64,000 nt of DNA, from assembly GCA_934045905.1 (NCBI GenBank), contig OW203762.1:8742001-8806000 (forward strand), written 5' to 3'. The notes below the pieces were generated by a model. The model had not been told where the DNA came from. It worked only from the letters and a program-made list of their open reading frames with translations, and ran no database searches. A program made the position numbers and the translations under genes. Source of the stretch: Leuctra nigra (Eukaryota > Arthropoda > Insecta > Plecoptera > Leuctridae). This document shows positions 22,494-60,000 of the stretch, in pieces; position 1 is the stretch's first letter; each line of letters begins with the position of its first letter.

Positions 22494-25400
22494 TTCTCTA
22501 ACAGTTCTCTTGCTCTAGGTGATCGCGTGGGTGCTGGTGAACCAAGTCGTGGTGTCCACTGCTGGGATGTACATCCAGTACCTTGTCATGGATTGGCGGG
22601 GGGCGCAGCCCTCAAGGGAGCTGCCCTCCTTCATCTGGCTGATGGTCTGCTTCGTCGTCTACTTGCTAGTTGAGGAGCTGGGATTCTACTACAGTCATCG
22701 GTAAAATGATACATTATTATCAGAGTTTGTTTTAGAATTATCCTTTATGTCTCATCTTATGTTTTTGGTCTGAAGATAGAAAATTCTCATGTGTTTGCAC
22801 TCATTGATAGGAAGGGTTGTATGATGTGAAAAATATCTGGCTGTTGCGGGGCTCGAACCATTGAATGCAGGCAAGAGGCAAGCCGCAAGTGAGAGGGCTT
22901 GGGGTTTTTCACTTTACAAATTGAAACCATCCTGACACTACTGGAAGTCTCCATACAACCCGGTTTCGTATGCACTATTGTTCATTTCAATACATTGTAT
23001 ATTCAAATTTAATTATTCTTTATTTTCAAAAGTTAAAATTGATAATAAAGATTGCATTCAAATTATGACACAGAATATAAATTTGCAATTTTTTTTATTA
23101 ATTGTGTATTTTTTACAGAACTGACTTTGGGGATACCAACTAGATTTGTCTAGAAGAATTTTGTATACACAATGAGCCATTTTTTCGCTCTTTTCAATTA
23201 GTTATTGTATTCAGCCACCAATTCACATAAGAGTTTTGTTGGCTGGTTGACACAGGTGTTTCCGGCAATGGGTTAAATTCCATTAGTTGTCTTTTCTGCC
23301 GGAGTTTTATTCGTGGTTCCCTCAGTCGAGGGTCAATTGTTGGGAAATAAGTCACGACCACCTCTTTCCCACCGTCCATCCTTATCATAAGTATGGGTTC
23401 CGCGGTGTTGGCCAATTGTTCTTTTGGATGTTGTGCAGACACCAACAAAGAATAAGGGAACAAGGGGCCATCACCGCTTAACTCACTAATAAAGTACAAC
23501 AATGGCTCTCAGAACTTAAAAAGTATGCATTACGAATTCCTTACCATCAAAGCAATGACTGTTGAACACTGCGACGTATCACCGAGATTAAAAGACTAAA
23601 AATTTCTAACCCCTTCTCCTTCAGTCTGCTGCACCACCGCTTCTTCTACAAACACATCCACAAGCGCCACCACGAGTGGACGGCTCCAGTCGGCGTCACC
23701 GCCATCTACTGCCACCCGCTGGAGCAAGTGTTGTCGAACCTGCTGCCCCCGATGATCGCCTCCATGCTGCTGGGCTCGCACTTGATCACCATGTGGATCG
23801 TCACCTGGGCCTACACGCTGAACACGGTGTGCGTCCACTCGGGCTATCATCTGCCGCTCCAGCCGTCGCCGCAGTCGCACGACTTCCACCATCTCAAGTG
23901 AGTCCAGACATGTTAGCCCCGCACTTGATCACCATGTGGATCGTCACCTGGGCCTACACGCTGAACACGGTGTGCGTCCACTCGGGCTATCATCTGCCGC
24001 TCCAGCCGTCGCCGCAGTCGCACGACTTCCACCATCTCAAGTGAGTCCAGACATGTTAGCCCCGCACTTGATCACCATGTGGATCGTCACCTGGGCCTAC
24101 ACGCTGAACACGGTGTGCGTCCACTCGGGCTATCATCTGCCGCTCCAGCCGTCGCCGCAGTCGCACGACTTCCACCATCTCAAGTGAGTCCAGACATGTT
24201 AGCCCCGCACTTGATCACCATGTGGATCGTCACCTGGGCCTACACGCTGAACACGGTGTGCGTCCACTCGGGCTATCATCTGCCGCTCCAGCCGTCGCCG
24301 CAGTCGCACGACTTCCACCATCTCAAGTGAGTCCAGACATGTTAGCCCCGCACTTGATCACCATGTGGATCGTCCTGGGCCTACACGCTGAACACGGTGT
24401 GCGTCCACTCGGGCTATCATCTGCCGCTCCAGCCGTCGCCGCAGTCGCACGACTTCCACCATCTCAAGTGAGTCCAGACATGTTAGCCCCGCACTTGATC
24501 ACCATGTGGATCGTCACCTGGGCCTACACGCTGAACACGGTGTGCGTCCACTCGGGCTATCATCTGCCGCTCCAGCCGTCGCCGCAGTCGCACGACTTCC
24601 ACCATCTCAAGTGAGTCCAGACATGTTAGCCCCGCACTTGATCACCATGTGGATCGTCACCTGGGCCTACACGCTGAACACGGTGTGCGTCCACTCGGGC
24701 TATCATCTGCCGCTCCAGCCGTCGCCGCAGTCGCACGACTTCCACCATCTCAAGTGAGTTGAACCTCGCATTCCTCAGGTATGCCTGGATTTAGCACTGG
24801 TTGCAGCTCTGGGACTAGAGAGGTGTAGCAGGATTTTTGCCACGAGCCCTATTCTATAACGGAAAATAAATCATTGCGGTCTGAAATCATTTCAGATCAA
24901 TGTTATCCTTATTCCCGTGAAATGATTTCGTAGCGAAATGATTTTCTTTTTCGTTATAGAATAGGGGTCCAGGAAGCAAAGGAAACTATTTGTCACGGGT
25001 TGGTGGTTCATTCTTCGCCCAGCAGAGAGAAGTTGGATTTTTTACACTTTGAAATACATTTTTAGACATAAAGAGATGTTGTTAAGAGATCTTAAAACTA
25101 TACCATACGCTCTAATAATAAAACAGTAACGAAGGCGACAAGCAAGCTATGGCAAGCTTTATATACAAACATTAGTGTGGTATAATAGGCTCAATGGATA
25201 TCAATAACGTACAATTTCTAATTTGTTTCACAGTGCGGGAAGGTAGAACTTGCAGGATTCTTTCACCTGTTTAAATAAATACAGGCTCCATCCCTAAATG
25301 CCTCATGCTCAAAAGAATTCCGGATTTATCGACGCAAGTGACCAGAGTCTACTGGATTTGGTCCATAAGATTATTAGCTCACAGTCTTGTGGTGTTGAGG

Positions 25401-26978
25401 ACTGACATCCGCAAATATCTACTTGCGGACGCAACTTCTTTTGAGCATGAGGCTGTAAATGCCTAGAACTTTATTTAAACCCCAAGTAAAATATACAGTA
25501 ATTAATTAATTTAAAATATTTCCATTTAATATATTACTTTAACTACACAGTGATGTACCGAACTATAGTCTTCAGGTTAGAAAAATCGTCCACAGATGTC
25601 GCCACCGAGCTGTAATGAAAGAATCACACTTCAGGTAGTAAATGTCGATATTTAGTAATTGAGCGAGCGTAGCGAGCGTCACCACGGTACTCTTATGGCA
25701 CTTTCTCTGTGTTTTTTTTGCTTGTTTTTTGTTGTTTTTTTGTGTTCACAGCCCAGGTCAAACGGGACAACCAATCGATCTGAAATTTTACACATATACT
25801 AACGTATTCTATGCGGTCCCTGGGATCGTTTTTGAATGGGCTCATGTGATTGGTTCAAATTTAAAAAAAAATATCTTTCGATTGGTTGTTCCGATCAATT
25901 TAAAATTTTGACAAGTCATTACGACCAACATTGTTCCCACTCTTACAAAGTTTCAGCCAAATCCTCCTATTGGTTAAAATTTAAAAAAAATCTTTTATGT
26001 GATTTTTTGAAATTTAAACTAGAACCGTATGACCGATCAACTTAAAACTTTGCATGGTCATTGGGACCAACATTATCTGTAGTTTTGACAATTTTCAGAC
26101 TAATCTGTGTTTAAATCCAAAAGTTGTTGACGTTTTACGGACATTTTGCGTGTTGGCTGTCAAATTTCTCGAAAATGTTGATCACGGCTACTTCGACTCT
26201 TTATAGTTCCAAGGTAGTTAGAGTAGAAACTTTCAAACGTATGAAACTGATATGACCATTCAACAGGGGACCTATTTTCGAGATCGTTCGAGCGCTCGCA
26301 TAATCGAGCGTGACGTCAAAGTGACGTCCGTCCGAAGGAAATAGCATCCAATAAGCCGAATCAGTTAATAGTTTTGTTTTGTCTGACGTCATATCAGCTC
26401 GTACCCGTATGATATTTTACTCGAACGATCTCGAAAATAGCCCCCCAGATCGATCTAATATTGTGTAAGAACCCACACTAATATTATCATGAGTGGTCCC
26501 ATGTCTATTTTTTTAAAGAGATCCTGTAATGTTTTAATATTAACAAGGAACAGTTCAATCAGAAAGGTTTAAAAGGTTCAAGCTTTGCATGGTTATTGGG
26601 ACTAATGTTTTAGGAATATTTTGAGATTGTTATACTTGAGTCTGACGAAATTCAAGAATTATTAGCTTTTAATGATATTTTCTATAGACATAATTTCGGT
26701 TCGAGGTGTTGCGCTTATCAACGCGTTACACAGAGCGTTTTCCTAGTGCAATAATATTTCGAACAAGGGGAAGAACCTCAAACAAATTAATTCATTGCAG
26801 GTTGCGTGTTTTTGCTTCCAGGTTCAACCAGAACTACGGAATCCTGGGAATCCTGGACACTTGGCATGGAACAAACACACTCTTCAAGAGCTCAGGACTA
26901 GTCAAAAGACACAGAGTTCTCAAAAGCTTCTCCACGATAGAAGAACTTTACCCGCTTAAAAAACTGCCCAGTGAATAA
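19621..26978 (+). CDS. FAXDC2-like: FAXDC2-like fatty acid hydroxylase-domain protein, paralog 1 (5 exons, 325 aa)
   Basis: Exons read at 19621-19745, 21669-21909, 22519-22700, 23625-23897 and 26822-26978; stop TAA 26976-26978. All introns are GT-AG and frames join in phases 2, 0, 2, 2. The protein should be an ER-membrane di-iron oxidase of the fatty acid hydroxylase/sterol desaturase superfamily; the substrate (sterol or acyl chain) cannot be told from sequence. Histidine boxes: HRLLH at residues 182-186, HKRHH at 195-199, HDFHH at 268-272. Hydrophobic segments lie near residues 22-40, 70-95, 123-145, 155-178 and 215-250; [19 protein letters not shown] is the family signature in exon 2. I chose the ATG at 19621 because its product (MEAKSRGEE) matches the N-terminus of paralog 5; an in-frame ATG at 19570 would add 17 residues. 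Oddities: exon 4's 3' part is repeated in tandem down to 24754, intron 4 holds a helentron-like element, and the C-terminal motif is LDTWHGTN where paralogs 3-5 have LDRLH(K/N)TD. Family call is firm; enzyme activity is inferred. Confidence 0.88.
19990..20032 (-). mobile_element. 3'-end remnant of helentron-like element
   Basis: ACCTAGAAGGAAAACGCTTC and TAACGCGTTGATAAGCGAG match the complement of the family's 3' end; no body follows. In intron 1 of paralog 1. Confidence 0.45.
20504..20825. mobile_element. Foldback element, about 83-bp arms
   Basis: CTGGAGGCCAAGTCTTGAAA at the left and TTTCAAGACTTGGCCTCCAG at the right open arms that stay complementary to CATTTACTGTAAG, with about three mismatches and a 155-bp centre. 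In intron 1 of paralog 1. Confidence 0.8.
22228..22496 (+). mobile_element. tRNA-derived SINE in intron 2 of paralog 1
   Basis: CTGGACTTGCACTCCGGAGG, B box GGGTTCGATTCCCG, CCCTCAGTCGAGAGGCAAAT and a (TCA)n tail at 22411-22493, which stops 25 bp before the exon 3 acceptor (22518). Confidence 0.7.
22411..22493. repeat. (TCA)n microsatellite next to a 3' splice site
   Basis: About 28 uninterrupted units. Immediately after it come CTCTAACAG (branch-point-like CTAAC) and TTCTCTTGCTCTAG, the acceptor of paralog 1 exon 3. Confidence 0.95.
23238..23412 (+). mobile_element. Decayed SINE in intron 3 of paralog 1
   Basis: TTGGCTGGTTGACACAGGTG, CCCTCAGTCGAGGGTCAATT and CACCGTCCATCCTTATCATA follow the family order; B box decayed (GGGTTAAATTCC). 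Confidence 0.45.
23762..24757 (+). repeat. Exon-4 donor array of paralog 1 (7 donors, 143-bp unit)
   Basis: The last 120 bases of exon 4 with the donor GTGAGT are followed by a short filler (GTGAGTCCAGACATGTTAGC and a few bases) and then copied again. Donor GT positions are 23898, 24041, 24184, 24327, 24468, 24611 and 24754: steps of 143 except one of 141 where two bases are missing. Copies are otherwise practically identical. Only the last donor continues into unique intron (GTGAGTTGAACC). Each copy includes the HDFHH histidine box. Reading past the first donor meets TGA at once, so the first donor must be used for the full protein. Confidence 0.93.
24847..24967. mobile_element. MITE in intron 4 of paralog 1
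   Basis: CCCTATTCTATAACGGAAAA pairs with TTTTTCGTTATAGAATAGGG; AATCATTTC/GAAATGATT inside add further pairing. Confidence 0.7.
25300..25453. mobile_element. MITE in intron 4 of paralog 1
   Basis: GCCTCATGCTCAAAAGAA at the left and TTCTTTTGAGCATGAGGC at the right; inner part also partly complementary. Confidence 0.7.
25660..26746 (+). mobile_element. Helentron-like element, copy 3, in intron 4 of paralog 1
   Basis: Same subtype as copy 2, with a T flanking each end. A separate 181-bp inverted-repeat element (26266-26446) is nested in it. The element's CCTAG end lies about 75 bp upstream of the exon 5 acceptor of paralog 1. Confidence 0.7.
26266..26446. mobile_element. MITE nested in helentron-like copy 3
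   Basis: Terminal inverted repeats of about 24 bp (left CTATTTTCGAGATCGTTCGA, right its complement) end in runs of G and C. Comparison with other copies of the host element (CAACAGATTGATC) shows CAG on both sides, a likely 3-bp target duplication. Inside are several TGACGTCA-like motifs. Confidence 0.7.
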
Positions 26979-32334: not shown

Positions 32335-35300
32335 ATGCGCATCCACACCAGGAAATAGTAAGTAGCCCACATTTTACACACTTTTTAAACACGCAGAGAT
32401 TGTCGGGCGTTGATCTTATTTGTATGACTATATTTATGAAAATTTTTGAATCAGTTCACACAAAAAATTTACCCATTTGTTTTCATGCGAGCTTCTTATC
32501 AGAAATGGTATAAAAAAATGCGATAAAACATATTTTTGTATTTTGTCTTCTACAATTGTTAAACGAAGTCTTCATTTGTTCAACTTGTTATTGAGTAACA
32601 ACTGCTAATATCCATGCATGCTGCGTCTGCTGTATTTTAATAACACAATTTACTGCATAATTATACACCAGTTTGAAGAAGCAATTATTTCTTAAGGTCG
32701 AAACCGTTGCTTGGAAGAGCAAAGAATGAATTCATTTAGTGAACGAAGCCCGGGCGACCAGATGGATGAGGGAAGAAAAGTAAAGAAGTACTCCGTATCT
32801 CTTGAGAGNNNNNNNNNNNNNNNNNNNNNNNNNNNNNNNNNNNNNNNNNNNNNNNNNNNNNNNNNNNNNNNNNNNNNNNNNNNNNNNNNNNNNNNNNNNN
32901 NNNNNNNNNNNNNNNNNNNNNNNNNNNNNNNNNNNNNNNNNNNNNNNNNNNNNNNNNNNNNNNNNNNNNNNNNNNNNNNNNNNNNNNNNNNNNNNNNNNN
33001 NNNNNNNNGGCTTGGCTTTCCACTATTGCATCTACAGAGCTTTGCAATGGAGAGGTGTTGCTGGAGTGAGAGAGCTGCCTTCACTTCTCTCCATCCCTGT
33101 CACTCTCTCAGTCATCGGGCTGGTGTTTGTGACTTATCTTCCTGGTTGTCTCAGGTGACTGGTGTGGTGATGTTCAACCAGCTGGCCGTGGGCTTGGCTT
33201 TCCACTATTGCATCTACAGAGCTTTGCAATGGAGAGGTGTTGCGGGAGTGAGAGAGCTGCCTTCACTTCTCTCCATCCCTATCACTCTCTCAGTCATCGG
33301 GCTGGTGTTTGTGACTTATCTTCCTGTTTGTCTCAGGTGACTGGTGTGGTGATGTTCAACCAGCTGGCCGTGGGCTTGGCTTTCCACTATTGCATCTACA
33401 GAGCTTTGCAATGGAGAGGTGTTGCTGGAGTGAGAGAGCTGCCTTCACTTCTCTCCATCCCTGTCACTCTCTCAGTCATCGGGCTGGTCTCGGAAGTAGG
33501 ATTCTACTACAGTCACAGGTAAGACGTAGATCTTTAGTCATAACAATCATGCGAGATCTCCGAGAGTGATCACACAACCTCAATCCTGGAAATGAGCTTC
33601 AAACTTTGGTAACAAAATCTCTTACCCAAGGTAGAGGTCACCTCCTCTGCCATCAACAGAGTAGGCTACTGCAGTTTAGATTTGGCATTATTGGCTGACT
33701 ATATGAGAGTGCACAAGATTGTGTGCATATGTAGAAAGCAGAAAGTAATCAAGACATTTTTTTTTCTGGGGCTAACGTCGCACTGTTCTGCAGCGAGGCT
33801 AATGGCGGCGAATGAATGATTATGATTATGATTGGGAGATGATGGCGAAGAGTAAGTTAGGTTGGAAGGTGGGAAGGAGGCGGTCGTAGCCTATTAGTAG
33901 GGTACCCTCCCAGCATTTGCCTGTCGACTGAGGAAATACCACGAAAAAAACCCAGTCACGAAGGACGGCCACGGGAATCGAACTCGGACAACCGGAATAC
34001 AAGTTCAGAGCGCTACCAATTACCACTCGGCCAAACCTGTTCCGTGACAATTTTATGTGTATAGAAACAATTTAATACTGCCATTTTTGATCATTTGATT
34101 TGTTGAAAAGATATTTAAAAAAGAAAATGTGATTATTTTTCCAATCAACGACATTAAGTATTCTATCGAATATTAGAAAATTAAATTAATTACAAAACTG
34201 AAAGCCAAATTTAACACTTGTGCATTTGTAAATGCAATAGTGTTGTTTTAAACAACGTTCACTCCCAATCTGGTAAGCAATTAATAAAAATACAAAATAA
34301 CCTCGGTCGTTATATATAATAATATATTTTGGCTTATGATTCAAGTCCCACGGTTTGAAGATGTTGAACAATGAATGCATCACCTCCAGACTCCTGCACA
34401 CAAGCTACCTGTACAAACACATCCACAAGCGCCACCACGAGTGGACGGCGCCCATCGCCATCGTGGCTGACTACTGCCACCCTCTGGAGCACTTGTTCTC
34501 GAATCTGCTGCCACTGCTGGTCGGTTTGACCATCACTCGTCCTCCACTGATGTTCGTCTACTTGATGTTGGTCTACGCCGCGCTGAGCACCTTGTCACAT
34601 CACTCGGTATATCAACTGCCGTGTCTGCCCTCGCCGGAGTTCCACGACTTTCACCATCTCAAGTGAGTCACGCAGAACAAGTGGAGGAAGGCTTACTTTG
34701 GTAGGATGTATGTGCATCATTTTTTTAAAACAATTTTAGCAATTTAAAAGTGTTTCTGGGACTGCAAATTGCACAAACTGTATCAAACAACCTCCAGTTA
34801 TTGCCCCCATATTGCGTTTTTTAAAAAGATTTAGACAATTTAAAAGTGATTTTAGGACGCTAAACATTTTTTAAAATTAATATGGCGTCAGATTACTTGA
34901 GTAATAGTCCCCCATTCATTTTTGCATTACATACCAAAGTAAAAAACGAATTAATCTTCAATGAACAAAGTTTGAGAATTGGCTTGACTTTGCCCCGCGT
35001 TTTGCTTATCTCAAGAGATCACAGATTCCTGAAGAGATCAGGAAATCAAAGATTAAATTTCGCATCTACCCTATTAACGGGAGAAGATGAAGTATAGGTA
35101 TAATAATACACGTTGGGGAGGAGGCGATCGGGCCTATTAGTAGATAACCATCCCCGCATTTGCTTGTCCTCCGAAATCAGGCTCAGAGCGTTACTGTCTG
35201 AGCCAACTTGCTCCGTTCTGGAATGATAGTCCATAATCCTTCCGTCCATTATGTTCTCTTATAATAAATCCTCTTATTCTCTTACTAGTTGCAGACCATT

Positions 35301-36214: not shown

Positions 36215-36264
36215 TAGAAGTACTCACAACAGCTGCAAGTGACCTCCGACATTCGCTTGACAAC

Positions 36265-39200
36265 ATGAGAAAAGCCAAGGAGGTAAAAGATCGGGCTGAT
36301 ATCGAACGAAGAAGGTAAGATAAGAAAACATCTTGGATAAACATGCCATTTCTATTTGCATTGCCGTGTTTGTTTTATGGGTTCGTACGTCATGATTAGG
36401 AATAGTTGTATTAGTACAACGAAAATACATAGGTGTAGTTCGCACATGGTTGATGCTATCCTTAAAATAATTTAAATATTAAATATTTAATATTTTTACA
36501 ATTGATTTCATGACGAATTTCTTGAACATGCCAGCTTTCACGTTGTCACGAAGAAATAATAAAATATTTCAATAAGAATGAAATCAAACTGAAACCTCAC
36601 CAACAACCTGTATATAAATACGTACATAATTTTGATACTTGATCTGGAATAGTAATTCAATCGCAAAAAGGTGCAAGTTGGCTCAGGTTACTCTCTGGAC
36701 ATGCACTAGGGCTCAATTCCCGTCTTTTACTATACCTTTTGTGATTACCCTCATTCGACAGGCAAAATGATGGGAAGGTTTCCCTCTAATTGTCCACATC
36801 CACGTCCTTTCCACCGTCCATTCTTACCAATTCCATCATCAATTCCCTTTCATCGTTAGCTTATTAGTTGCAGAACAGTGCTACGTTAAACACGTCTCCT
36901 TGTTCCAGACTCCAAAAGGATTCGAAACCTAAGAAGAAGCCATTGAATGGATGGTACCCGACAGCCCTGGCTATAGTCATTGCATTCTTCATACATAGAA
37001 GCAAAGTGATAGACGCTGCTTGGGACGGTTTGCTGGACCGCGTGGGCGAGGATGAGTTCACATTGTGGTTCTGGGGCCCGTTCATCGTGTCCGTCACCGC
37101 CTATTGGGTGGTCGGCGCCTTCTACATCTTCCTGGACCTCACGGGCTTGCTCAGCAAGTACAAGGTCCAGCCGGGCAAGAACGAACCGGTGGAGGTGAAG
37201 AGGCTCATCAAGGTGGGAATGTTATGAGAGCAATCAGCATTCAGTAACCTTTCAGAGATTCATTCCAGGCAAAGAAGTGACAACATATATTTAAAACACA
37301 TCCAGAATTCAATTTTGTACATTCATTATTACGTTTATTTACGTCATTTACGATTGACAATTTCTGTAAGTTTACTACAAAATCGTATTGCACAGAGATT
37401 TACGTAAATGTATAGGCATATAAATGTGAACTCCTGTCTACATTATACTTTTTTAAACATATTAGTCAAAACTTTATACGAATATTTTTTTTGTTCGATC
37501 CCCTGATTGAATCGAATACCCTACAATAATTTCAAAATTGTTTAATTTAAGTTTTCAGTGTTCTCAATACCTCCAAGGCAGGAGGTCCGAAGTAAATTTT
37601 CTTAAATTCCCGGTGCACAGTTTTGAAATCATTACAAATATGATTGGATGTAGTATAGTCCCAGGTAGTAGGAAGAATTACTTTTTTTAAGCTTATATCA
37701 AGAATCATTGAAATGAACTTCAGTCAGGTCGTCTGCATCGAAGTCACGTAACTTACTTATTCTGATTTTGCTGTTTCTCTCTGAAGGCAATTGGAGTGGT
37801 GCTGTTCAACCAGATAGGGGCCGGCTTGCTCTTCCAGTACCTCGCCTTCAACTTCATTCCTCGTGACGGTTTCTCTCACGTGCGGGAACTTCCCTCACTG
37901 CCTCACGTCATCTTCACCCTCCTTGTGTTCGGCGCGGCGCATGAGATCGGCTTCTACTACACACATAGGTAATAGTCATGCTCTCAGTCCACGTCACACC
38001 GCCTTCAACTTCATGCCACGTGATGGTTTCTCTCACGTGCGGGAACTTCCCTCACTGCCTCAGGTCATCTTCACCCTCCTTGTGTTCGGCGCGGCGCATG
38101 AGATCGGCTTCTACTACACACATAGGTAATATTCATGCCTTCAGTCCACGTCACACCGCCTTCAACTTCATGCAACGTGATGGTTTCTCTCACGTGCGGG
38201 AACTTCCCTCACTGCCTCACGTCATCTTCACCCTCCTTGTGTTCGGCGACGCGCATGAGAACGGCTTCTACTACACACATAGGTAATAGTCATGCTCTCA
38301 GTCCACGTCACACCGCCTTCAACTTCATGCCACGTGATGGTTTCTCTCACGTGCGGGAACTTCCCTCGCTGCCTCACGTCATCTTCACCCTCCTTGTGTT
38401 CGGCGCGGCGCATGAGATCAGCTTCTACTACACACATAGGTAATAGTCATGCTCTCAGTCCACGTCACACCGCCTTCAACTTCATGCCACGTGATGGTTT
38501 CTCTCACGTGCGGGAACTTCCCTCACTGCCTCACGTCATCTTCACCCTCCTTGTGTTCGGCGCGGCGCATGAGATCGGCTTCTACTACACACATAGGTAA
38601 TAGTCATGCTCTTAGTCCACGTCACACCGCCTTCAACTTCATGCCACGTGATGGTTTCTCTCACGTGCGGGAACTTCCCTCGCTGCCTCACGTCATCTTC
38701 ACCCTCCTTGTGTTCGGCGCGGCGCATGAGATCGGCTTCTACTACACACATAGGTAATAGTCATGCTCTCAGTCCACGTCACACCGCCTTCAACTTCATG
38801 CCACGTGATGGTTTCTCTCACGTGCGGGAACTTCCCTCGCTGCCTCACGTCATCTTCACCCTCCTTGTGTTCGGCGCGGCGCATGAGATCGGCTTCTACT
38901 ACACACATAGGTAATAGTCATGCTCTCAGTCCACGTCACACCGCCTTCAACTTCATGCCACGTGATGGTTTCTCTCACGTGCGGGAACTTCCCTCACTGC
39001 CTCACGTCATCTTCACCCTCCTTGTGTTCGGCGCGGCGCATGAGATCGGCTTCTACTACACACATAGGTAATAGTCATGCTCTCAGTCCACGTCACACCG
39101 CCTTCAACTTCATGCCACGTGATGGTTTCTCTCACGTGCGGGAACTTCCCTCGCTGCCTCACGTCATCTTCACCCTCCTTGTGTTCGGCGCGGCGCATGA

Positions 39201-44904: not shown

Positions 44905-47900
44905 AACCGCACTGTACTCTGTTTGCAGTCACGCCATGGAACGTGCGTGGCACAGATTACTGGATCAATTAGGGGAAGATGAAATGACAGTGTATTTCTG
45001 GTCACTTTTCATTGGACTAATAGTGGTGTACTGGTCAGTCGGAGGCTTCTACATCTTCCTGGATCTGACAGGTGTACTTAGCAAGTACAAGGTGCAGCCG
45101 GGATGGAACCAACCAGTGGACAAAGACAAACTGATCAATGTAAGATGTCTATACTCTTTTCATTGCTTGCGAGTTCTTTTGTTTGACATCATTAATGCAT
45201 ATAAATTGAATTTTCCCTGAGACCATTAGGTTGGCACGTTAGACAGGTCGGATTTCAATTAGGTAGGATAAAGGAGATTTCGTTGGAAAGTAAAATGAGT
45301 AATTCTCTTGCATATTTTATGATTTCTCTATAGTCAAACTATCAACATATCACCAAAGCACAGATATGACAGCTATTCTAAATTTTGTCTAAAATATAGT
45401 ATACTATGCGTAGTATAAGTGTAATCGAAATTGACGCGAAATCGAGAAAATTGACTTCCGCCCTTCTACCTCTGAGGTACAAATGAGTATTTAATACTAA
45501 AATATAGTATTATAAATAACGAGTCTATATACTAAAATAATATAGTCGATGTGTTAGAAAAAGAAAAAATATGGAAACATATCTATGGAAAAATATGTAT
45601 AATGTGTCTTTGATTTGTATTTTTGATGAATCTTGGCAGGTCCGTGCATCTACATCTACTGCCGAGTCTAATTGATGAATGTTCTTGTCGTTAGGCAATC
45701 AAGGTGGTTCTCTTCAACCAAGTTATCTTGGCAGGTCCGTGCATCTACATCTACTGCCGAGTCTAATTGATGAATGTTTTTGTCGTCACGCAATCAAGGT
45801 GGTTCTCTTCAACCAAGTTATCTTGGCAGGTCCGTGCATCTACATCTACTGTCGAGTCTAATTGATGAATGTTCTTGTCGTCAGGCAATCAATGTGGTTC
45901 TCTTCAACCAAGTTATCTTGGCAGGTCCGTGCATCTACATCTACTGCCGAGTCTAATTGATGAATGTTCTTGTCGTCAGGCAATCAAGGTGGTTCTCTTC
46001 AACCAAGTTATCTTGGCAGGTCCGTGCATCTACATCTACTGCCGAGTCTAATTGATGAATGTTCTTGTCGTCAGACAATCAAGGTAGTTCTCTTCAACCA
46101 AGTTATCTTGGCAGGTCCGTGCATCTACATCTACTACCGAGTCTAATTGATGAATGTTCTTGTCGTCAGGCAATCAAGGTGGTTCTCTTCAACCAAGTTA
46201 TCTTGGCAGGTCCGTGCATCTACATCTACTGTCGAGTCTAATTGATGAATGTTCTTGTCGTCAGGCAATCAAGGTGGTTCTCTTCAACCAAGTTATCTTG
46301 GCAGGTCCGTGCATCTACATCTACTGCCGAGTCTAATTGATGAATGTTCTTGTCGTCAGGCAATCAAGGTGGTTCTCTTCAACCAAGTTATCTTGGCAGG
46401 TCCGTGCATCTACATCTACTGCCGAGTCTAATTGATGAATGTTCTTGTCGTCAGGCAATCAAGGTGGATCTCTTCAACCAAGTTATCTTGGCAGGTCCGT
46501 GCATCTACATCTACTGCCGAGTCTAATTGATGAATGTTCTTGTCGTCAGGCAATCAAGGTAGTTCTCTTCAACCAAGTTATCTTGGCAGGTCCGTGCATC
46601 TACATCTACTGCCGAGTCTAATTGATGAATGTTCTTGTCGTCAGGCAATCAAGGTGGTTCTCTTCAACCAAGTTATCTTGGCAGGTCCGTGCATCTACAT
46701 GTACTGCCGAGTCTAATTGATGAATGTTCTTGTCGTCAGGCAATCAAGGTGGTTCTCTTCAACCAAGTTATCTTGGCAGGTCCGTGCATCTACATCTACT
46801 GCCGAGTCTAATTGATGAATGTTCTTGTCGTCAGGCAATCAATGTGGTTCTCTTCAACCAAGTTATCTTGGCAGGTCCGTGCATCTACATCTACTGCCGA
46901 GTCTAATTGATGAATGTTCTTGTCGTCAGGCAATCAAGGTGGTACTCTTCAACCAAGTTATCTTGGCAGGTCCGTGCATCTACATCTACTGTCGAGTCTA
47001 ATTGATGAATGTTCTTGTCGTCAGGCAATCAATGTGGTTCTCTTCAACCAAGTTATCTTGGCAGGTCCGTGCATCTACATCTACTGTCGAGTCTAATTGA
47101 TGAATGTTCTTGTCGTCAGACAATCAAGGTGGTTCTCTTCAACCAAGTTATCTTGGCAGATCCGTGCATCTACATCTACTGCCGAGTCTAATTGATGAAT
47201 GTTCTTGTCGTCAGGCAATCAAGGTGGTTCTCTTCAACCAAGTTATCTTGGCAGGTCCGTGCATCTACATCTACTGCCGAGTCTAATTGATGAATGTTCT
47301 TGTCGTCAGGCAATCAAGGTGGTTCTCTTCAACCAAGTTATCTTGGCAGGTCCGTGCATCTACATCTACTGTCGAGTCTAATTGATGAATGTTCTTGTCG
47401 TCAGGCAATCAAGGTGGTTCTCTTTAACCAAGTTATCTTGGCAGGTCCGTGCATCTACATCTACTGCCGAGTCTAATTGATGAATGTTCTTGTCGTCACG
47501 CAATCAAGGTGGTTCTCTTCAACCAAGTTATCTTGGCAGGTCCGTGCATCTACATCTACTGCCGAGTCTAATTGATGAATGTTCTTGTCGTCAGGCAATC
47601 AAGGTGGTTCTCTTCAACCAAGTTATCTTGGCAGGTCCGTGCATCTACATCTACTGCCGAGTCTAATTGATGAATGTTCTTGTCGTCAGGCAATCAAGGT
47701 GGTTCTCTTCAACCAAGTTATCTTGGCAGGTCCGTGCATCTACATCTACTGCCGAGTCTAATTGATGAATGTTCTTGTCGTCAGGCAATCAAGGTGGTTC
47801 TCTTCAACCAAGTTATCTTGGCTGGTCCGTGCATCTACATCTACTGCCGAGTCACAATCTGGCTCGGTGCTCCTCCAATCAGAGAGCTGCCCTCCTTGCT

Positions 47901-49152
47901 CGTAGTGTTCGTCACGCTCGCTGGCTGCGTGCTCGTCGAGGAAGTCCTCTTCTATTACATTCATCGGTAGGGACAAATGTAATAATTGAAAGAAATCCAT
48001 TATTTGGGATTATACCTAGTGTTGTAAATTAATTACAGTATGTATTATGTTTTGCATACACAAGCGTAGCGAGTGTTACTACGTAACTCTTATACCTTAC
48101 CTGTTTGTTGTAATACAAGCACTCAAACAATCACAATGAGTGCACATAAGACCATATTCTGTTTCAGTCTGCTGCACCACCGCTTCTTGTACAAGCACAT
48201 CCACAAGCGCCACCACGAGTGGACGGCGCCTATCGCCATCACTGCCATGTATTGTCACCCTCTGGAACAGGTCTTCGGCAACGTCCTGCCGTATCTGACC
48301 GGGCTGTTGTTGACGAGGGCACACGTGGTCTCGGCTTTGGCGGTGGGAGCAGTGTTCCAGTCCGGCATTCTCTGTCATCATTCGGGATATCATCTGCCGT
48401 TTCTTCTCTCTCCGCAGTTTCACGACTTCCATCATCTCAAGTAAGCTTTCACAATGGAAATAAAACATTTACATTTTGAACACATATTTATTGTTATGCT
48501 AATCTCTAGAAAACATTCCTTGTATATTTCCCAATAAGGAAATCAACAAATTCAGCAGTGCTACCAAAAATAAGTCATACTCATAATGACCCATACCTAA
48601 TAAAGCGTAAAACATCAAATGTTTCATTAGTTTGAGTCGGGCACCTATTTATTTCAGTGATTTATAATACAAGTATTGGATTATCCCAATTTTATAATCT
48701 TATACCAATACATTTTGTGGTGATGTTTTCCTATTTAGTTTTAGAAGAAAAAACTTGCCGCCTAACATACGTGGCTCCTATATTTTCAATAACCAAACAC
48801 ATGTAAGATTATGGACTTTGCATACGGGAATCTCAGCAGAGATGGCATTGCAGGTAGCGATTATAGGAACAATAAATGTTAAGACTGCAAAGAAAAATTA
48901 GGTTATTCCTGTAGGTAATTCAGTTGGTATTTACTTGTAGGTATCATGTTAGTGCATGCATGCAATAACATGCATGGTATTGCATGTTGTAATTCTTCCA
49001 GATTCAACTCTTGCTTCGGGCTGCTGGGCATTCTTGATCGTCTTCACAACACAGACGATCTGTTCAGGAAATCAGGACTCAATTCCAGGAACAAGATACT
49101 CACCACTTTGACACCAATCCAGGATTTAGTCCCGCTGGATAAAGTCAAGTAG
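44905..49152 (+). CDS. FAXDC2-like: FAXDC2-like paralog 4 (exons 2-5; exon 1 not found)
   Basis: Exon 2 at 44905-45139, exon 3 at 47785-47966, exon 4 at 48168-48440, exon 5 at 49002-49152 with stop TAG. They give 280 residues plus an unseen first exon ending in phase 2. Exon 2 carries [19 protein letters not shown]; exon 3/4 give IHRLLH, then HKRHH and HDFHH. Because exon 2 has no hydrophobic stretch before the DQLGEDEM region, the first membrane segment should be in the missing exon 1, as in paralogs 1 and 5. The exon 2 donor is GTAAGA and the exon 3 donor GTAGGG. Exon 3 is preceded by 22 tandem copies of its own acceptor and first 65 or so bases. A helentron-like element lies upstream at 43970-44645, in intron 1 or the promoter. 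Exon 2 has fewer G/C third positions than the other paralogs' exon 2, suggesting an older or differently constrained copy. Confidence 0.83.
45635..47850 (+). repeat. Exon-3 acceptor array of paralog 4 (23 acceptors, 95-bp unit)
   Basis: Exon 3 starts are found every 95 bases from 45695 to 47785 with no insertion or deletion in 22 steps. Each unit holds the intron end (TGTTCTTGTCGTCAG), the first codons of exon 3 ([22 protein letters not shown]) and then GTC TAA, a stop. In two units (starts 45790 and 47500) the acceptor AG is changed to AC. Only the last unit, which also differs by GCT for GCA in the Ala codon, continues into full exon 3. Confidence 0.95.
48058..48100 (+). mobile_element. 5'-end remnant of helentron-like element
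   Basis: AAGCGTAGCGAGTGTTACTA and ACTCTTATACC resemble the 5' end of copies 2 and 3. It fills part of the short intron 3 of paralog 4. Confidence 0.4.
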
Positions 49153-50672: not shown

Positions 50673-51143
50673 TTAAGAAATATTCAATAAATATAATGAC
50701 CGCTGGGGGGTCATTCCTGTACGTTTTTAGTCTCGTAAGTCAGGTATCGTATCGTAAATTTGGTTTACAATAATGTTACGTCCATAACAACGGTTGCTAG
50801 AGGAATCACACCACAGTTTATTTCGTAGTTCAAATGCATACATTTCTTGAATTGTTATTACTTAAATTGAAATTTACTGTGCATATTCTTGCTTTCAGTG
50901 TGATAGTGTATTTAAATTACTTTTTTTATTTTTATGTGTTTTGTTTATATGTGTAGATTATTGTTAGTTTTATAATTAGTAGGTATGTAGCCCTGTATAC
51001 AATCCTATTGGTTTAACGGGGCTACAATAACATTTGCTTTGTATTTTTTTTTCAAACAAAAACTTTGAAAAAGTACATTTAGGTTAATTAAGCAAGTAGT
51101 TTGACAATGCCAAGGTCACTTGCTTACCTGAGGCTAATATTAT

Positions 51144-51964
51144 TGAGCGAGCGAAGCGAGCGTCTCCTTTCTGCTCATTTGGCACGGACCTCTGTGTTTT
51201 TTTTCTTTTTTTCTTTTTCTTTTTTGTTTTTACTTTTGTCTGTTGAATAGACGATACACAGGTCACAATGTTTCTTCGATCGATCTGAAATTTTGCACAC
51301 ATGCAGAACCTTTTCTGTTTGCAGACCCAAATTTTTTTTTAAATCCATTCATTGGTTAAAATTGAAATAAACATCTCCTGATAGGTTGAAAAATGAAAAT
51401 GGTCTTCGATAAATCTGATCAAATTCATATTTTGGCTATACAGGTCAGAGTTTTTCTTTGATCGAGCTGAAATTTTGCACACATGTAAAACCAACCTTCT
51501 CTGTTTGCAGACCATAATTTTTTTTGAAATCCATTAATTGGTTAAAATTTAAATAAATATCTCCTGATAGGCTGAAAAATGAAAACGGTCTTCGATAATT
51601 CAGATCAAACTCATATTTTGCATGATCATAAAGACCAACATTGTCTCTTATTTTACAAAATTTTATCCCAATGTTAAGAACGTATGAACTTATTAACATT
51701 TTTAATATCTGTCAGTAATGAAGTATCAAAATGAATGTTTTCCAGTGCCAATTGAATTGCAACTGATTTGCTATCTTTACCAGGATGCTTAGATGTTATT
51801 TTCAAGTTTCAATGAAAAGCATAATATGTTGTGTTGATTGAGTGATCATATTTCAATTCAATATGGATGTATATGTTTTCTGTGCTTGTGTACGCATTTC
51901 CGGTTCGAGAATTTGCACGTCCCCGTGCTCGCTCACCAACGCGTTACACTGAGCGTTTTCCTAG
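51144..51964 (+). mobile_element. Helentron-like element, copy 5
   Basis: Full 5' end (TGAGCGAGCGAAGCGAGCG) and 3' end (CACCAACGCGTTACACTGAGCG then CCTAG, flanked by T). An internal stretch of about 180 bp around 51260-51580 is present twice (the phrase CTGAAATTTTGCACACATG recurs). Confidence 0.7.
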
Positions 51965-52046
51965 TATGAAAAAACATCCAGATAGGTATTTAATCAACAA
52001 CGTACGATTTTTAATTACTTTTCTGAGAGTATGATTCACAATTAAA

Positions 52047-52925
52047 CTAGGAAAACGCTCTGAGTAACGCGTTGATGAGCGAACACGGATACGCGCAACA
52101 CCTCGAACCCGAAATTCTGTCTATCGAAAATGTCCTTAAACGCCAATAATTCTTGAATTTCGTCAAAGACTAATATTGTATTAAAATCTACAACAATTCC
52201 TAAAATGTGTTCCCAATAACCATACAAAGTTTTACGTTGATCGATTGAACCTTTATGATTGAACGATTTCTTGTTAACTTTCAGAAATCACAGGATCTCG
52301 TTCAAAAAATATTCCTGGGACTACTCATATGATATTATAAGTGTGTGAATACAATATTAGATCGATCTGTTGAACGGTCATATCAGTTTCATATACGTTT
52401 GAAAGTTTCTGCTCTTTCTGCTGGAACTGAAGATTCGAAGTTACCGTGAAATATGAAATTCGAGAAATTTGACAGCCAACACGTAAAATGTCCGTAAACT
52501 GTCAATAACTTTAGAATTTAAACACAGATAAGTCTGAAAATAGCCAAAAATACAGATAATGTTGGTCCCAATGACAATGCAAAGTTTTAAGTTGATCGGT
52601 CAAACGGTTCTAGTTTAAATTTCAAAAATCACATGAAATATTTTTTTAAATTTTAACCAATGGGAGGATTTGGCTGAAACTTTGTAAGATTGGGGACATT
52701 GTTGGTCGAAATGACTTGTCAACATTTCAAATTGATCGAACCAACCAATCGAAAGATTTTGTTTTAAAATTTGAACCAATCAGTGGATTTCAAAAAATAT
52801 TAGGGTCTGCAACGCCCATAAATGGTCCGTACATATGTGAAAAATTTCAGCTCGATCGAAGAAAAACTCTGACCTGTATATCGTCAGGTAGCAAAAAAAC
52901 ATAAAAAAGAGGTCCGTGCCAAATG
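52047..52925 (-). mobile_element. Helentron-like element, copy 6 (5' end lost)
   Basis: Reverse orientation: begins CTAGGAAAACGCTCTGAG, the complement of the 3' end, 82 bp from the 3' end of copy 5, so the two face tail to tail. It runs to the phrase complementary to GGCACGGACCTCT but lacks the GAGCGAGCG start. Confidence 0.65.
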
Positions 52926-52980
52926 AGCCAAAAACACTTATTCACTTAAGGGGGAGCAATCGATCGACATATACAAAATA

Positions 52981-54303
52981 CTAGGAAAACGCTCAGTGTA
53001 ACGCGTTGATGAGCGAGCACGGGTACGTGCAAATTCTCGAACCGGAAATGCGTACACAACGCACAGAAAACATATACATCCATATGGAATTGATTATGAT
53101 ATCAACTTAAAAGTGTATGCTTTTCATCGAAACTTTAAAATAGCATCTAAGCACCTGGTTCATAAAGCAAATCAGAATCAATTTTCAATTGGCACTGGAA
53201 AACATTCATTTCGATACTTCATTACTGACAGATATTAAAAATGTAAATAACTTCATACGTTCTTAACTGATTGGGATGAAATTTTGTAAAATAAGAGACA
53301 ATATTGGTCTTAATGATCATGCAAAATATGAGTTTGATCAGAATTATCGAAGACCGTTTTCATTTTTCAGCCTATCAGGAGATATTTATTTAAATTTTAA
53401 CCAATGAATCTGAGTAACGCGTTGATGAGCGAGCACGGATACGCGCAACACCTCGAACCGAAATTCTGTCTATCGAAAATGTCATTAAAAGCCAATAATT
53501 CTAAAATTTCGCCACAGATTTGTATAGAAATCTCAAAACATTCCTAAAATATTGGTCCAAATAACCATGCAAAGCTTTAAGTTGATCAATTGAACCTTTA
53601 TGATTGAACTGTTCCGTGTTAATTTTCAAAAATCACAGGATCTCCTTCAAAAAATATACCTGAGACCACTCATATGATATAAGTGTGTCTACACAATATC
53701 AGATCGACTGTTGAACGGTCATTATCAGTTTCATTTGCGTTTGAAAGTTTCTGCTCTAACTACCTTGCCTTGAACTGAAGAGTCGAAGTCGCCGTGAATT
53801 TGACAGCCAACACGCTAATAGTCCGTAAAATGTCAATAACGTTTGGATTTAAACACAGATTAGTATGAAAATTGTCAAAAATGCAGATAATGTTGGACCC
53901 AACCATCATGCGAAGTTATAAGTTGATCGTTCAATCGGTTATAGTTTAAATTTCTAAAAACACAGGAAAGATGGTTTTAAATTTTAACCAATGGGAGGAT
54001 TTGGCTGAAACTTTGTTTGATTGGGTACAATGTTGGGGGTAATGACTTGTCAAAATTTCAATTTGATCAAAACAACCAATCGAAAGTTAATTTTTTTTAA
54101 ATTTGAACCAATCAATGGATTTCAAAAAAATTAGGGTCTGCAACAATCAGAAATGTTACGTACATGTGTGCAAAATTTCAGCTCGATCGAAGAAAAACTC
54201 TGACCTGTATATCGTCAGTAACAGAAAAAAAAAAAACAAACAAAAAAAAAAACAGAGGTCCGTGCCAAAAGAGCCAAATGGAGACGCTCGCTTCGCTCGC
54301 TCA
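52981..54303 (-). mobile_element. Two merged helentron-like elements, copies 7a and 7b
   Basis: Reverse orientation. A first 3' end (CTAGGAAAACGCTCAGTG) starts at 52981 but its body stops near 53409, where a second 3' end (CTGAGTAACGCGTTGATGAG) begins and runs to a full 5' end (complement of GAGCGAGCGAAGCGAGCG) at 54303. The second copy lacks the terminal CTAG, so 7b was truncated on joining 7a or was copied from an internal site. Confidence 0.6.
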
Positions 54304-55943
54304 AAAAAAATTCTTGAAATTACACGTTCAAAAAACGTTTTCCTACATTTCAACTATATTTAAGTACAACAGACTCATTTAATGTTCTGTAGTTTGCAAC
54401 TCCAGTCCAACAATGAGTTTTCAATTTTATGTTATCAGAGGATGAACAAAACTTTAACATGGGAGGTATAGGAAAATCATTTCGAATTTGGTTTATAACT
54501 TTTAAAATAGCACACGTTGGTATTGTTTTCAATTTTTTTCCTGACAGTATGTCCATATGTCTACCATAAAAAAAGTTTTTTGCTCAAATCTATCGAGACA
54601 AAAAAAATAGATCTTCATTTTAGCCTTAAAATGACACGATTTTCTTTTTCCGCCATAAGATAACATGGGGGAGACAAATCAATTTATCTCAGAAACTGGA
54701 CACGAGAAGTGTTTCATTTTTTCATGGATTGTGTATTGCATGATTATCAATAAGTCACCAAAATTTCAAGTAAATCGGAAACATTGAGGTTATGGTGGTT
54801 CTACCTTAAAACACTTATTCACTTATTTATTGGCGAATAATTTGTGTTTCCTCTCTCCCATCCTCACATTTCGTCAATTAAAAAAATAATATAATAATAC
54901 TAAACCTTTAATGCATCATAATGACCAGCAAATTTTTATCATTGTATTGTTTATCAACAAAGAGATTCCATGTCAATTATATCTGTGCTATCAATCTATA
55001 GTGCGGTCGACAAACAATGTGCCCAAGAACCTTGAACCTACTCTGTGTATATTGCTCAAGGCTATGGATCATGTTCACTGCTATAACGCCAACAGCTGAC
55101 GATCTAGCTGCTTTGCTGTCAGTGTTCGCAACAGCGCAGTGGCAGAAGGAAGAAGAGGATTGGTAAGACATCAACAAACATTGTTCACAGTTACATTGAG
55201 TTATAGAGAAGGTGTGGGTTTGTTATGGTCTTCCTGTAAATATGACGAGTACATATCAGTGTTTTTATATCTTATTTTTATGGTACGTATAACGTTTTTG
55301 TTGTGCTACTTAGTAAGTTTTTGTAGCTATGTGATTAGTTAGATTGCTCTCAGCACATTTTATATTACATACGCAACAACGCGAACTTAATCGGTGTTAA
55401 CTCTCAGTAGTAGTCGTGTGTAGGCAGGTACTTTTAAGAAGTTAAATCTAAGCGGTTACAAATCTTATATTTGGAGTCCCGAAGGTATTTAGGTACTATT
55501 GCCCACATTTGGAAACTCGACTAGGTATGTTTTTTAAAACATTAATTTATTTTTTGTTTTGGTAGACATGACAGAAATATATTTTTCAATTACAAATTAG
55601 GTACACCCAAAAAATCATAAACGGTATATGAACGAAACGGATTGACTGCTGGTCAGGTTCCTTGACAATCAATCCTTGTTATTATCAATGAAATCAGAGC
55701 TCATCTACTAGATGTAGATGACGAGTTAGCATAGACTTCATCGGATGATGCCATCACATTTTTTCAGTCCTATCAATTTCTTTCAGATACCGTGTTATCA
55801 TTTGTTGAGTGTACCTAACTTCTTATCAACAAAAACAAATCGTGTTACTGAAAATAATTTTGTAAGCTACTTTGATACTACACAAATTAATAAGTAAGTA
55901 CTTAGGTACCTAGCTTTGTTTAAGAAGTACCTAGCAAATTTGT
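54304..55943. other. Intergenic region; possible 5' leader exon of paralog 5
   Basis: No coding gene seen. A GC-richer stretch ending GAAGAAGAGGATTG with donor GTAAGA at about 55167 could be a non-coding first exon joined to the acceptor at 57030; speculative. Confidence 0.3.
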
Positions 55944-55993
55944 TGAGCGAGCGAAGCGAGCGTCTCCTTTTGGCTCCTTTGGCACGGACCTCT

Positions 55994-56025
<32 letters not shown>

Positions 56026-56819
56026 TGTTTTTTTCTGTTACTGACGATATACAAGTCACAGTTTTTCTTTGATCAAGCTGAAATTTTGCACACATGTACT
56101 GACCATTTCCGGGCGTTGCAGACCCTAATTTTTTTGAAATCCCCTGATTGGTTCAAATGTTAAAAAAAATATCTTTCGATTGGTTTGTTTGATCAATTTG
56201 AAATTTTGACAAGTCATTGCCACTAACATTTTACTCAATCAAACAAAGTTTCAGCCAAATCCTCCCATTGGTTAAAATTTAAAACAATCTTTACTGTGAT
56301 TTTTGAAATTTAAACTAGAGCCGTTTGACCGATTAACTTAAACTTTGCATGGTCATTGGGACCAACATTATCTGTGTTTTTGACAATTTTCAGACACATC
56401 TGTGTTAAAATCCAAAAGTTATTGACATTTTACGGACATTTTGCTTGTTGCTACGGATCACGGCATCATTGACGCCTCAGTTCCAATGTTCCAAGGTAGT
56501 TAGAAGTTTAGAACAGAAACTTTCAAACGCATAATTATGACACTTATAATCAACAGATTGATCTGATATCGTGTACACAAACTTATATCATATGAGTGGT
56601 CCCAGGTATATTTTATTTTTGGAACAAGATCCTGTGATTTTTGAAAATTAACAAGGAACCATTCAATCATAAAGGTTCAATCGATCGACGTAAAACTTTG
56701 TATGGTTATTGGGACCAATATTTTTGGAATTTTTGAAGATTTTCATACAAGATTTCGGTTCGAGGTGTTGCGCGTATCCGTGCTCGCTCATCAACGCGTT
56801 ACTCAGAGCGTTTTCCTAG
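55944..56819 (+). mobile_element. Helentron-like element, copy 8
   Basis: Complete ends, T on both sides, with a long T run after GGCACGGACCTCTG. It ends 220 bp upstream of the first coding exon of paralog 5. Confidence 0.7.
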
Positions 56820-57039
56820 TATATTTGTTTAACCTTTGGTAGAGGCCCATTTTGGTAATAGAATGTTTAGTTCAACACTGTCAACATGCTATTACATAAT
56901 TTTTGAAGCATAAAATAATATATGATTATGTATCATTTGTTTTTACTTATGAGGCTATTTATACTAATATAATCACATTGGTATCAGTAAAATGTTCAAT
57001 CTTCCTCTGAACTGAGTATTTTCTTACCAGGATTTCACA

Positions 57040-60000
57040 ATGGACACAAAAACCCGCAAGGGTCCCAAGAAACCAGCCGACGATGCGTCGTTGAACTCGT
57101 CGTTGCCCACGTCGTTTGGGAGCCTCGTCGTTGGGGCAATTGCACTCGCAACACTCGCGATTGCGTTCAAAAGCAACTTCATAGCGTGGTAAGTGTGTAG
57201 AGACATCACTTATAAATAAGGACACATTTAATAAATTACTTGAGTGCATGTAGACGGTGATAAATGCAATTATCACGACCATAGTAATAGACATCTAGAG
57301 AACTCGGTGCTCGTCCCAGAGAGTGGCTAATATTGCAATAATCAGAAACCTAGCCACATCAGTCTTGGGTCAAGTTTCTGTCAAACATGAACTTTAGTTC
57401 CAGATACTTGCAGTATGAGCGGGAGTAGATCAGTTCTCTTCTACGAGAAAGTTTATTCCTGGTCCTTTTTGAAAGGAACTTGTCGTGCAATTATAGAAAA
57501 TGTATTATTTGTACGACTGTTTTAAAACCGTTTTTGGATAATTTCAAGTAATGAGACATTTGTATCACAAATTTTTGCTCTACGTATTTTTATATTTTTA
57601 AGAATTATTTTTGATTAGGCCACATCACAATTATTTAGCTAGCTCTGCTTTTTTCATAAATAGATACCTAACTGGAAACTCAAACTGCATTTTACATGAT
57701 TGAAAAGGCAGAGCTATAGATAATGTTAAATATGGTATATTGAATTGTTGGCTCGACTGATTTTTATATAACTAATTACTCTTCACTACTCTAATACACT
57801 ACTTTTTTGAATTCGTTTCGATTTCTTTAGAAATGATGTCCATACACCGAAGGATGTTTTTTTATGGGGAATGGGTATATTGGAGGCCTGGGGACCGCTG
57901 AAGAAACTGACGGTTTCGTCAAATTTTCCCCAAATGCGACCTATCCAAGGCTCATTATTTACTCCACTGTTATGCAACTTTGGGAGGAAGTTTTGTTACC
58001 CATTTACTGCAATCCTACTGAGAAAAATTCAGATATATTTACAGGAAAAATAGTTCTTTTGCATTTTCGTTTTCATGAAATGTGTTTTTTTTCAAGCATT
58101 TCTTCAATTTTATAAATATCATTCCGAGAAAATGGGTATCAATCACAACAACCTCCAAAAGTTGCGAAACAATGGAGTAAATAATGAGCCTTAGATATAC
58201 CGCATTTTGTGAAATTTGACTCAGCCGTCTGATCTCCAGCGGTCCCCAGGCCTTGATGTCTAAAGAATCTTGATGTTCTCTCAGGCCTGGAGATATGATC
58301 GCCTCCGCCTGGAACGGTCTTCTGGACCGCGTGGGAGACGATGAGTTCACACTCTGGGTCTGGGGCACGTTCCTGGTCTCGACTCTGGCATATTGGACCT
58401 TCGGCGCCTTCTACATCTTCCTGGACCTCACGGGCGTGCTCAGCAAGTACAAGGTCCAGCCGGGCAAGAACGAGCCGGTGGAAGTCAAGAAGCTCATCAA
58501 GGTGGGAGAATCAATTACATTCTAGAGAATCTCTTTGGGTAACGTTGTCAATTTGGGTTCTAAGCCCTTTGAATTTCAAAACAAAATTTTCTGTAATTTC
58601 GCTCTAAATAATATTGTATTAATTTGTCTTTTTACAAAGTTTTGTACATTTATCTTTTGTAAATATTTTCTAATTTTGACATGAAATATGGGCCAATAGG
58701 GAAGTATTGTGAAAATAAGGTTTCAGAATAATAGTTCATTTATGAAAGTTGAAATGTTGCTGAACGCGTTTGTGATATAATTTTTCTTCTGAAATAAATT
58801 GTTTTGAAGATATTTTACGTAGTTCGATAGATTTATTATAATTTTAGTGTCACATTGTAATGTCCCATGACTGTGTGTAGTAGTGTCTCGATCTCATAGC
58901 TAGAAATATTCTTGAACAGGGTGTCTTTAAAGTCATTTCGGCAATAAAGTTGTGTAAATCAACAGCTGGCAGTACGGGACGAAAGAGGGTGCCGTAGGCA
59001 GTATGGGACATAGGGTAACAGGTAAGGAAAAGGTTAGTAGGCAGTTAGGCAATACACCTTGTGTTGATAATTATACATTTACTGGAATATAATTTTTATA
59101 AGTAGTACCGCTGCCTCTGGGGTCCTATTGTTGAACTTTTGATTTTTTTCATTTTTTTTAGATTCACTGCTATATACCTAGATGGAATCTAATTCCTGAG
59201 GAATTGGAAATGTAAAAGTTGTAGCAACACTTGTGTTCCAGGCTATCGGGATGGTCGTGTTCAACCAGCTGGCCGTGGGCTTGCCCTACTTGTTCTTCAT
59301 GTACCACGTGGCCATGTGGCGTGATTGTACTGCATGTTGTGTTCCAGGCTATCGGGATGGTCGTGTTCAACCAGCTGGCCGTGGGCTTGCCCTACTTGTT
59401 CTTCATGTACCACGTGGCCATGTGGCGTGATTGTACTGCATGTTGTGTTCCAGGCTATCGGGATGGTCGTGTTCAACCAGCTGGCCGTGGGCTTGCCCTA
59501 CTTGTTCTTCATGTACCACGTGGCCATGTGGCGTGATTGTACTGCATGTTGTGTTCCAGGCTATCGGGATGGTCGTGTTCAACCAGCTGGCCGTGGGCTT
59601 GCCCTACTTGTTCTTCATGTACCACGTGGCCATGTGGCGTGATTGTACTGCATGTTGTGTTCCAGGCTATCGGGATGGTCGTTTTCAACCAGCTGGCCGT
59701 GGGCTTGCCCTACTTGTTCTTCATGTACCACGTGGCCATGTGGCGAGGCGTGCCTCCAGTCAGAGAACTGCCGTCGCTGCTGGAGATTCCAGTCAAGGCG
59801 GTGGTCGCAATGCTGGTCAGAGAGGCGGGCTTCTACTACAGCCATAGGTCGGTTCGAACGTCAGAGAATAGGAACAATTAGAAAACTAAATTCAAAACAT
59901 TTACTTACATTTTCCACATGTTGTTTATTGTGTGTATTTGTTCCTTTACATACTTATTTAGTGTGAAATATATTTAGTTTGTAAACTCAAAACATAACAT

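Follow-up and report, generated by a model that had tools for sequence, protein, structure and literature searches.

Each of five neighboring paralogs in Leuctra nigra (Plecoptera) carries tandem copies of at least one of its own splice junctions, which raises the question of whether such copies regulate the genes, are artifacts of assembly or are repeats that the genes tolerate. The cluster lies in a 64,000-nt stretch of contig OW203762.1 (positions 8,742,001 to 8,806,000 of the forward strand; hereafter the window), where a tblastn search querying gene-1 exons revealed five FAXDC2-type fatty-acid-hydroxylase genes in tandem on the plus strand. Using Tandem Repeats Finder together with the exon map, we reproduced the six arrays of the original prediction, at the unit lengths it gave (143, 182, 157, 129, 95 and 106 bp, in 2.6 to 23.4 copies with 97-99% matches) and on the exon edges it named (Table 1). 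In all six the repeat unit spans an exon-intron boundary, and in all six one intact junction is joined to the full exon, the real exon-3 and exon-4 frames being open. The prediction that donor arrays need their first site and acceptor arrays their last was right throughout, as the full exon continues from that copy in every array. We consider it likely that the arrays are separate, recent and mostly neutral exon-edge minisatellites of the type called "mirages" in lancelets, tolerated through exon definition.

In support of this reading, all six tandem repeats with units of at least 27 bp inside the genes cross an exon edge, and no further repeat of that unit length was detected in the genes at a score of 30. 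The earlier statement that no array is purely intronic is thus correct within the genes when the unit is at least 27 bp long and fails for small units, such as the purely intronic (TCA)28 at 22411-22493.

Table 1. Tandem arrays, assembly gap and host genes in the window. Units were cut in register, and their exonic and intronic lengths are good to a base or two.
Feature	Position	Strand	Description	Exonic nt per unit	Intronic nt per unit	Intronic fraction
Array 1, gene 1 exon-4 donor	23777-24759	+	143 bp x 6.9, 7 copies; real exon end in the first copy	about 121	about 22	0.15
Array 2, gene 2 exon-3 acceptor	33009-33488	+	182 bp x 2.6, left end cut by gap; last copy real	about 152	about 30	0.17
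Array 3, gene 3 exon-3 donor	37843-39702	+	157 bp x 11.8, 12 copies; first copy real	about 127	about 30	0.19
Array 4, gene 3 exon-4 donor	40398-42201	+	129 bp x 14.0, 14 copies, five-unit block repeated; first copy real	about 72	about 57	0.44
Array 5, gene 4 exon-3 acceptor	45630-47853	+	95 bp x 23.4, 23 copies with acceptor and a leftmost partial copy without; last copy real	about 68	about 27	0.28
Array 6, gene 5 exon-3 acceptor	59231-59745	+	106 bp x 4.9, 5 copies; last copy real	about 81	about 25	0.24
Assembly gap adjoining array 2	32809-33008		200 N			
Gene 1, FAXDC2-type, five exons	19570-19745, 21669-21909, 22519-22700, 23625-23897, 26822-26978	+	tblastn, splice borders, homologs			
Gene 2, exons 3-5	33337-33518, 34390-34662, 35553-about 35660	+	tblastn, splice borders			
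Gene 3, exons 2-5	about 36909-37212, 37787-37968, 40196-40468, 42483-42641	+	tblastn, splice borders			
Gene 4, exons 2-5	about 44905-45139, 47785-47966, 48168-48440, 49002-49151	+	tblastn, splice borders			
Gene 5, exons 1-5	57040-57188, 58285-58501, 59666-59847, 60280-60552, 61360-61516	+	tblastn, splice borders			

Exon sequence makes up most of each unit and intron only a short tail, a feature that was absent from the original prediction and is new here. The intronic fractions depart from uniformity (Kolmogorov-Smirnov [KS] P 0.028, with a test picked after the data were seen), and their low mean has P 0.014 when no splice site is demanded and 0.0009 to 0.00001 when a minimum intronic part is required, again post hoc. 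Arrays lying wholly within an exon would mostly disrupt the protein; of the six unit lengths, 129 bp alone is divisible by three. The acceptor tails, at 25-30 nt, have about the length of a branch point, pyrimidine tract and AG taken together, so each acceptor copy may be self-sufficient, putative branch point included. No template of the intronic tails was found elsewhere in the window within three edits for the seven strings tried, and a search for relic exon copies returned 18 short matches (17-32 bp) outside arrays and exons, all of them in the 40-nt flanks added to the query exons, and no exon copy.

Edges, unit lengths and breakpoints differ between the genes, and the three arrays at the exon-3 acceptor each have a different breakpoint. 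Because of these differences, and because units are 97-99% alike while gene 5 and the other paralogs have 53-66% of residues in common, we infer that the arrays arose separately and recently in each paralog. Inheritance of the arrays from one ancestral gene was rejected on the same differences. The shared process of exon-edge duplication that had been suggested for the cluster is supported: the six arrays differ in edge, unit length and breakpoint, and their host paralogs diverged long ago. Copying from lariat intermediates was dropped by reasoning alone, as it could explain acceptor tails and not donor tails.

Within the arrays, inner units are homogenized and edges differ in arrays 1, 3, 5 and 6: the leftmost gene-4 copy has no acceptor, and the outer copies of arrays 1, 3 and 6 have changed intronic ends. 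The pattern is weak in array 4, where the block of units 3-7 appears again, slightly changed, as units 9-13, and array 2 adjoins the gap. With the unit-boundary bases omitted from the comparison, true copy and decoy consensus disagree at three sites in array 3 and at one each in arrays 5 and 6, and are the same in arrays 1 and 4; array 2 has a single complete decoy, from which its true copy departs at three sites. Such a distribution points to turnover inside the arrays that leaves the edges out. One of these differences lies at position 47823, where the true gene-4 exon reads GGCTGG and the array-5 decoy consensus GGCAGG; the change is silent, and the decoys gain an extra CAG/GT.

We propose that in each gene, independently of the others and recently, a segment of 95-182 bp, mostly exonic and with a short intronic tail bearing the splice signal, was tandemly duplicated, and that the array would then have grown by slippage or unequal exchange. 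The junction beside the exon body is intact, so that normal mRNA would still be possible, and the remaining copies sit in the intron as decoys. Exon definition would pair sites across the shortest exon, that is, with the first donor or the last acceptor, and the decoys would be tolerated because the exon-adjacent site would be picked. Exon definition is expected for long introns, such as the 15 of 16 mapped introns that are at least 432 nt long as assembled, and the shortest exon is its choice; the shortest intron here would give stops. The donor 9-mer is identical between true and decoy copies in gene 1 (7/7 copies) and in exon 3 of gene 3 (12/12 copies), and GTGAGT is present in all 14 copies of array 4. 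With identical donor 9-mers in true and decoy copies, position or wider context must decide between them, if protein is made.

Several points weigh against neutral, tolerated minisatellites. Splicing at the exon-side site is a prediction from sequence; arrays occur in all five paralogs, which a neutral process need not yield; and the one short intron, after exon 3 of gene 4 and thus beside the exon of the real acceptor, measures only 201 nt. Among the decoys, 14 differences change an amino acid and 10 are silent, with about 75% expected to be changing (P 0.059 pooled), and array 4 alone has a shortage of amino-acid-changing differences at P 0.025. Exchange with the true copy could be the source of this shortage.

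How far the placement on exon edges exceeds chance was estimated by collapsing each array to one unit, placing it at random for its length and multiplying the per-unit probabilities. A random unit falls on a junction at 18-34% of positions inside gene spans, depending on its length, and under a model that treats the arrays as independent, lacks some first exons in its exon map and tests a pattern noticed beforehand, all six fall on junctions with P 2.3e-4 inside gene spans and 2.8e-7 over the whole window. Chance placement alone was rejected on these values. Of the positions at which a unit overlaps an exon, 56-88% also place it across an edge (product about 0.13), and the product for exon overlap by all six units is about 0.002. 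The surprise therefore lies in the units overlapping exons at all, straddling being the common outcome of such overlap.

That expectation favors an explanation by composition only, to which we give slightly less than an even chance, namely that minisatellites start in GC-rich DNA, which in an AT-rich genome means exons, and that purely exonic arrays are lost by selection. GC content is 49-61% in the exonic parts of the units, compared with 33-40% for the majority of 2-kb stretches in the window, and an array with a 167-bp unit outside the genes has 44% GC. The narrow tails of 22-30 nt in five of the six arrays are not explained by composition itself, though GC does drop just outside exons.

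The original prediction had also offered decoy splice sites or poison exons that set expression. On that explanation, the arrays would hold back splice factors or divert some of the transcripts to stops and decay and so set the output of each paralog. Besides the presence of at least one array in every paralog and the slight shortage of amino-acid changes, the decoys themselves give it some support, as GT or AG is kept in 55 of the 57 complete decoys (6 in array 1, 1 in array 2, 11 in array 3, 13 in array 4, 22 in array 5 and 4 in array 6), and stops were reached in all 12 decoys translated (two from gene 1, one from gene 2, two from each gene-3 array, three from gene 4 and two from gene 5). 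The earlier statement that the other copies lead to stops therefore stands for these 12 of the 57; gene 5 reaches its stop via a frameshift, and one of the translated gene-4 decoys is already without AG.

Closer comparison of the copies speaks against a maintained function. Both of the changes among the 114 splice-dinucleotide cells fall in gene 4, where AG is lost in 2 of 22 complete decoys, or 2 of 44 cells (P 0.078 for an excess over background), with no sign of conservation; none of the 70 cells elsewhere is changed, a count of low statistical power given a divergence of about 1%. Of the decoys, 3 of 13 in array 4 and 1 of 6 in array 1 have lost 1-2 bp from their exonic sequence. Substitutions per cell in exonic versus intronic parts of the decoys are 0.009 vs 0.017 in array 3, 0.013 vs 0.005 in array 5 and 0.022 vs 0.009 in array 4 (P 0.043 for the last), and in none of these three arrays, the ones compared, is the exonic part significantly less variable. 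Given the AG losses, the exonic deletions and exonic parts not significantly less variable than intronic ones, the decoys look unmaintained. Moreover, no array position is common to the paralogs apart from the three exon-3 acceptors described above, and the conservation expected of poison exons was not seen in the comparison between paralogs, to which it was limited, as edges and breakpoints differ. Inspection of the aligned units revealed one real splice site per unit instead of an acceptor and a donor bounding it; to act as a cassette exon, a copy would therefore need a cryptic partner site. Poison exons or decoys that set expression are thus not supported by these data, and we regard such a function as improbable.

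The weakest explanation, that the assembler multiplied copies or strung allelic or paralogous copies together, draws on the gap at array 2, the near-identical units of arrays 1 and 6 and a lancelet mirage that, according to excerpts of PMC3087553, was misassembled in a draft genome, but we think it very improbable given the many distinct unit variants of arrays 3, 4 and 5, partly in a repeated block pattern, the altered edge copies, and decoys whose best match is their own gene's exon at 100%, with other paralogs lower. The systematic fault raised as an alternative in the original prediction is unlikely for arrays 3, 4 and 5, whose variant and block-duplicated units argue against invention by the assembler; the copy numbers of the arrays of genes 1, 2 and 5 may be in error, and so may the exact counts of all arrays. 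The adjoining gap suggests that the assembly broke at array 2, and the copy number there is a lower bound for the same reason.

Exon-edge minisatellites of this kind have precedents. In the excerpts consulted, PMC3087553 describes lancelet mirages as exon-intron boundaries that have been duplicated in tandem. Those of globin genes lie at one or the other side of an exon and have units of 150-160 bp, and the units in Adh3 are 10-72 bp long; RT-PCR suggested undisturbed splicing, inner units were homogenized, and intron seeding was the model. The genes reported in these parts of the literature are Adh3, the globins BflGb6 and BflGb9, TnC and PGBD5 (PMC3087553; PMC3902484 adds PGBD5, Adh and TnC), the architecture is reported as harmless to splicing (PMC3087553, PMC3902484), and the first report, as known through these papers, is Canestro 2002. 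Judged against those excerpts, the arrays described here resemble lancelet mirages in a unit lying over the exon-intron boundary on the 5′ or 3′ side, in the single intact junction, and in homogenized inner units with the edges left out. They differ in the arthropod host, in the occurrence of six arrays in one five-paralog cluster, in copy numbers of up to 23 and in the 182-bp unit, which exceeds the lengths quoted for lancelets (up to about 160 bp). Undisturbed splicing and instability, seen as length polymorphism or somatic change, are further features of the mirage kind; the arrays here are known from the sequence of one assembly.

Two other systems are less close, as far as the excerpts describe them. 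Human segmental-duplication paralogs have variable internal tandem repeats at exon-intron boundaries, minisatellites that alter the borders of exons in recently duplicated genes and may give rise to introns; the human units, however, average 30 bp, lie within coding exons in about half of the cases and are not whole splice-site modules repeated many times over (PMC2812944). Earthworm metallothionein genes likewise have long in-gene minisatellite arrays, which are intronic, together with an exon-4 duplication whose duplicated exon is absent from transcripts, but those arrays lie in the first intron and the text examined gives no exon-edge placement (PMC12783039).

The mirage kind therefore probably extends to an arthropod. 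No arthropod exon-edge array was found in the open literature, among the matches listed and at the level of titles and abstract openings, subscription papers being outside this scope. If reads agree with the assembly, exon-edge minisatellites would not be restricted to lancelets and would arise in a distant animal group, several times in one cluster. The arrays would reveal directly whether a shortest-exon or a shortest-intron rule picks splice sites, and they bear on the proposal, made in the excerpted parts of PMC3087553, that boundary repeats seed intron gain. A stronger version, that this arthropod genome has a lancelet-like process repeatedly copying an exon end plus a 22-30-nt intronic splice module, most copies being complete splice sites identical to the true one, is a tentative idea that we think doubtful; if true, it would make the arrays a natural assay of exon versus intron definition and a lasting reservoir from which new introns could arise.

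In the host genes, exon 3 measures 182 nt and exon 4 measures 273 nt in all five paralogs, with AG/GT at their borders. The tblastn search with gene-1 exons did not find exon 1 of genes 3 and 4 or exons 1-2 of gene 2. Gene 2 is visible from the assembly gap onward, has a short exon 5 and carries HSVYQ in place of the HSGYH of the other four paralogs; together with the absent exons, these features suggest that gene 2 may be a decaying copy. PF04116 (FA_hydroxylase) was matched above its gathering score by all three proteins scanned, out of the five paralogs. Three protein searches gave 1028, 936 and 1654 matches, and among the best 120 of each, identity is at most 53% and the best named, from insects and other arthropods, are of FAXDC2 type. 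The organism-naming rows among these matches are all arthropod except one gastropod record, P0002 (Batillaria attramentaria); the absence of lancelets from the rows listed makes a lancelet host unlikely. In an unrooted tree, a branch with support 100/99 separates the five window proteins from the other 42 rows. The high-scoring P0002 groups over its first 165 residues with dipteran FAXDC2 proteins on the tree, for which contamination, transfer or a long-branch effect are possible readings.

In the window, Rfam gave no match at gathering scores, a bacterial-code scan gave no tRNA, and seven stretches fit a viral-contig pattern, none of them confirmed as a relative. Three other repeats lie outside the five genes. 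An intergenic array of a 27-28-bp unit at 3604-4953 has about 42 copies at variable spacing, the 167-bp array at 15882-16377 has three copies and no link to any gene was found for it, and a 186-bp x 2 pair at 51258-51620 is 87% alike. Interspersed repeats with GAGCGAGCGAAGCGAGCG-like and ACGCGTTGATGAGCGAGCACGG-like motifs occur in both orientations at 51140-56830, and short stretches near positions 19345 and 26730 match them.

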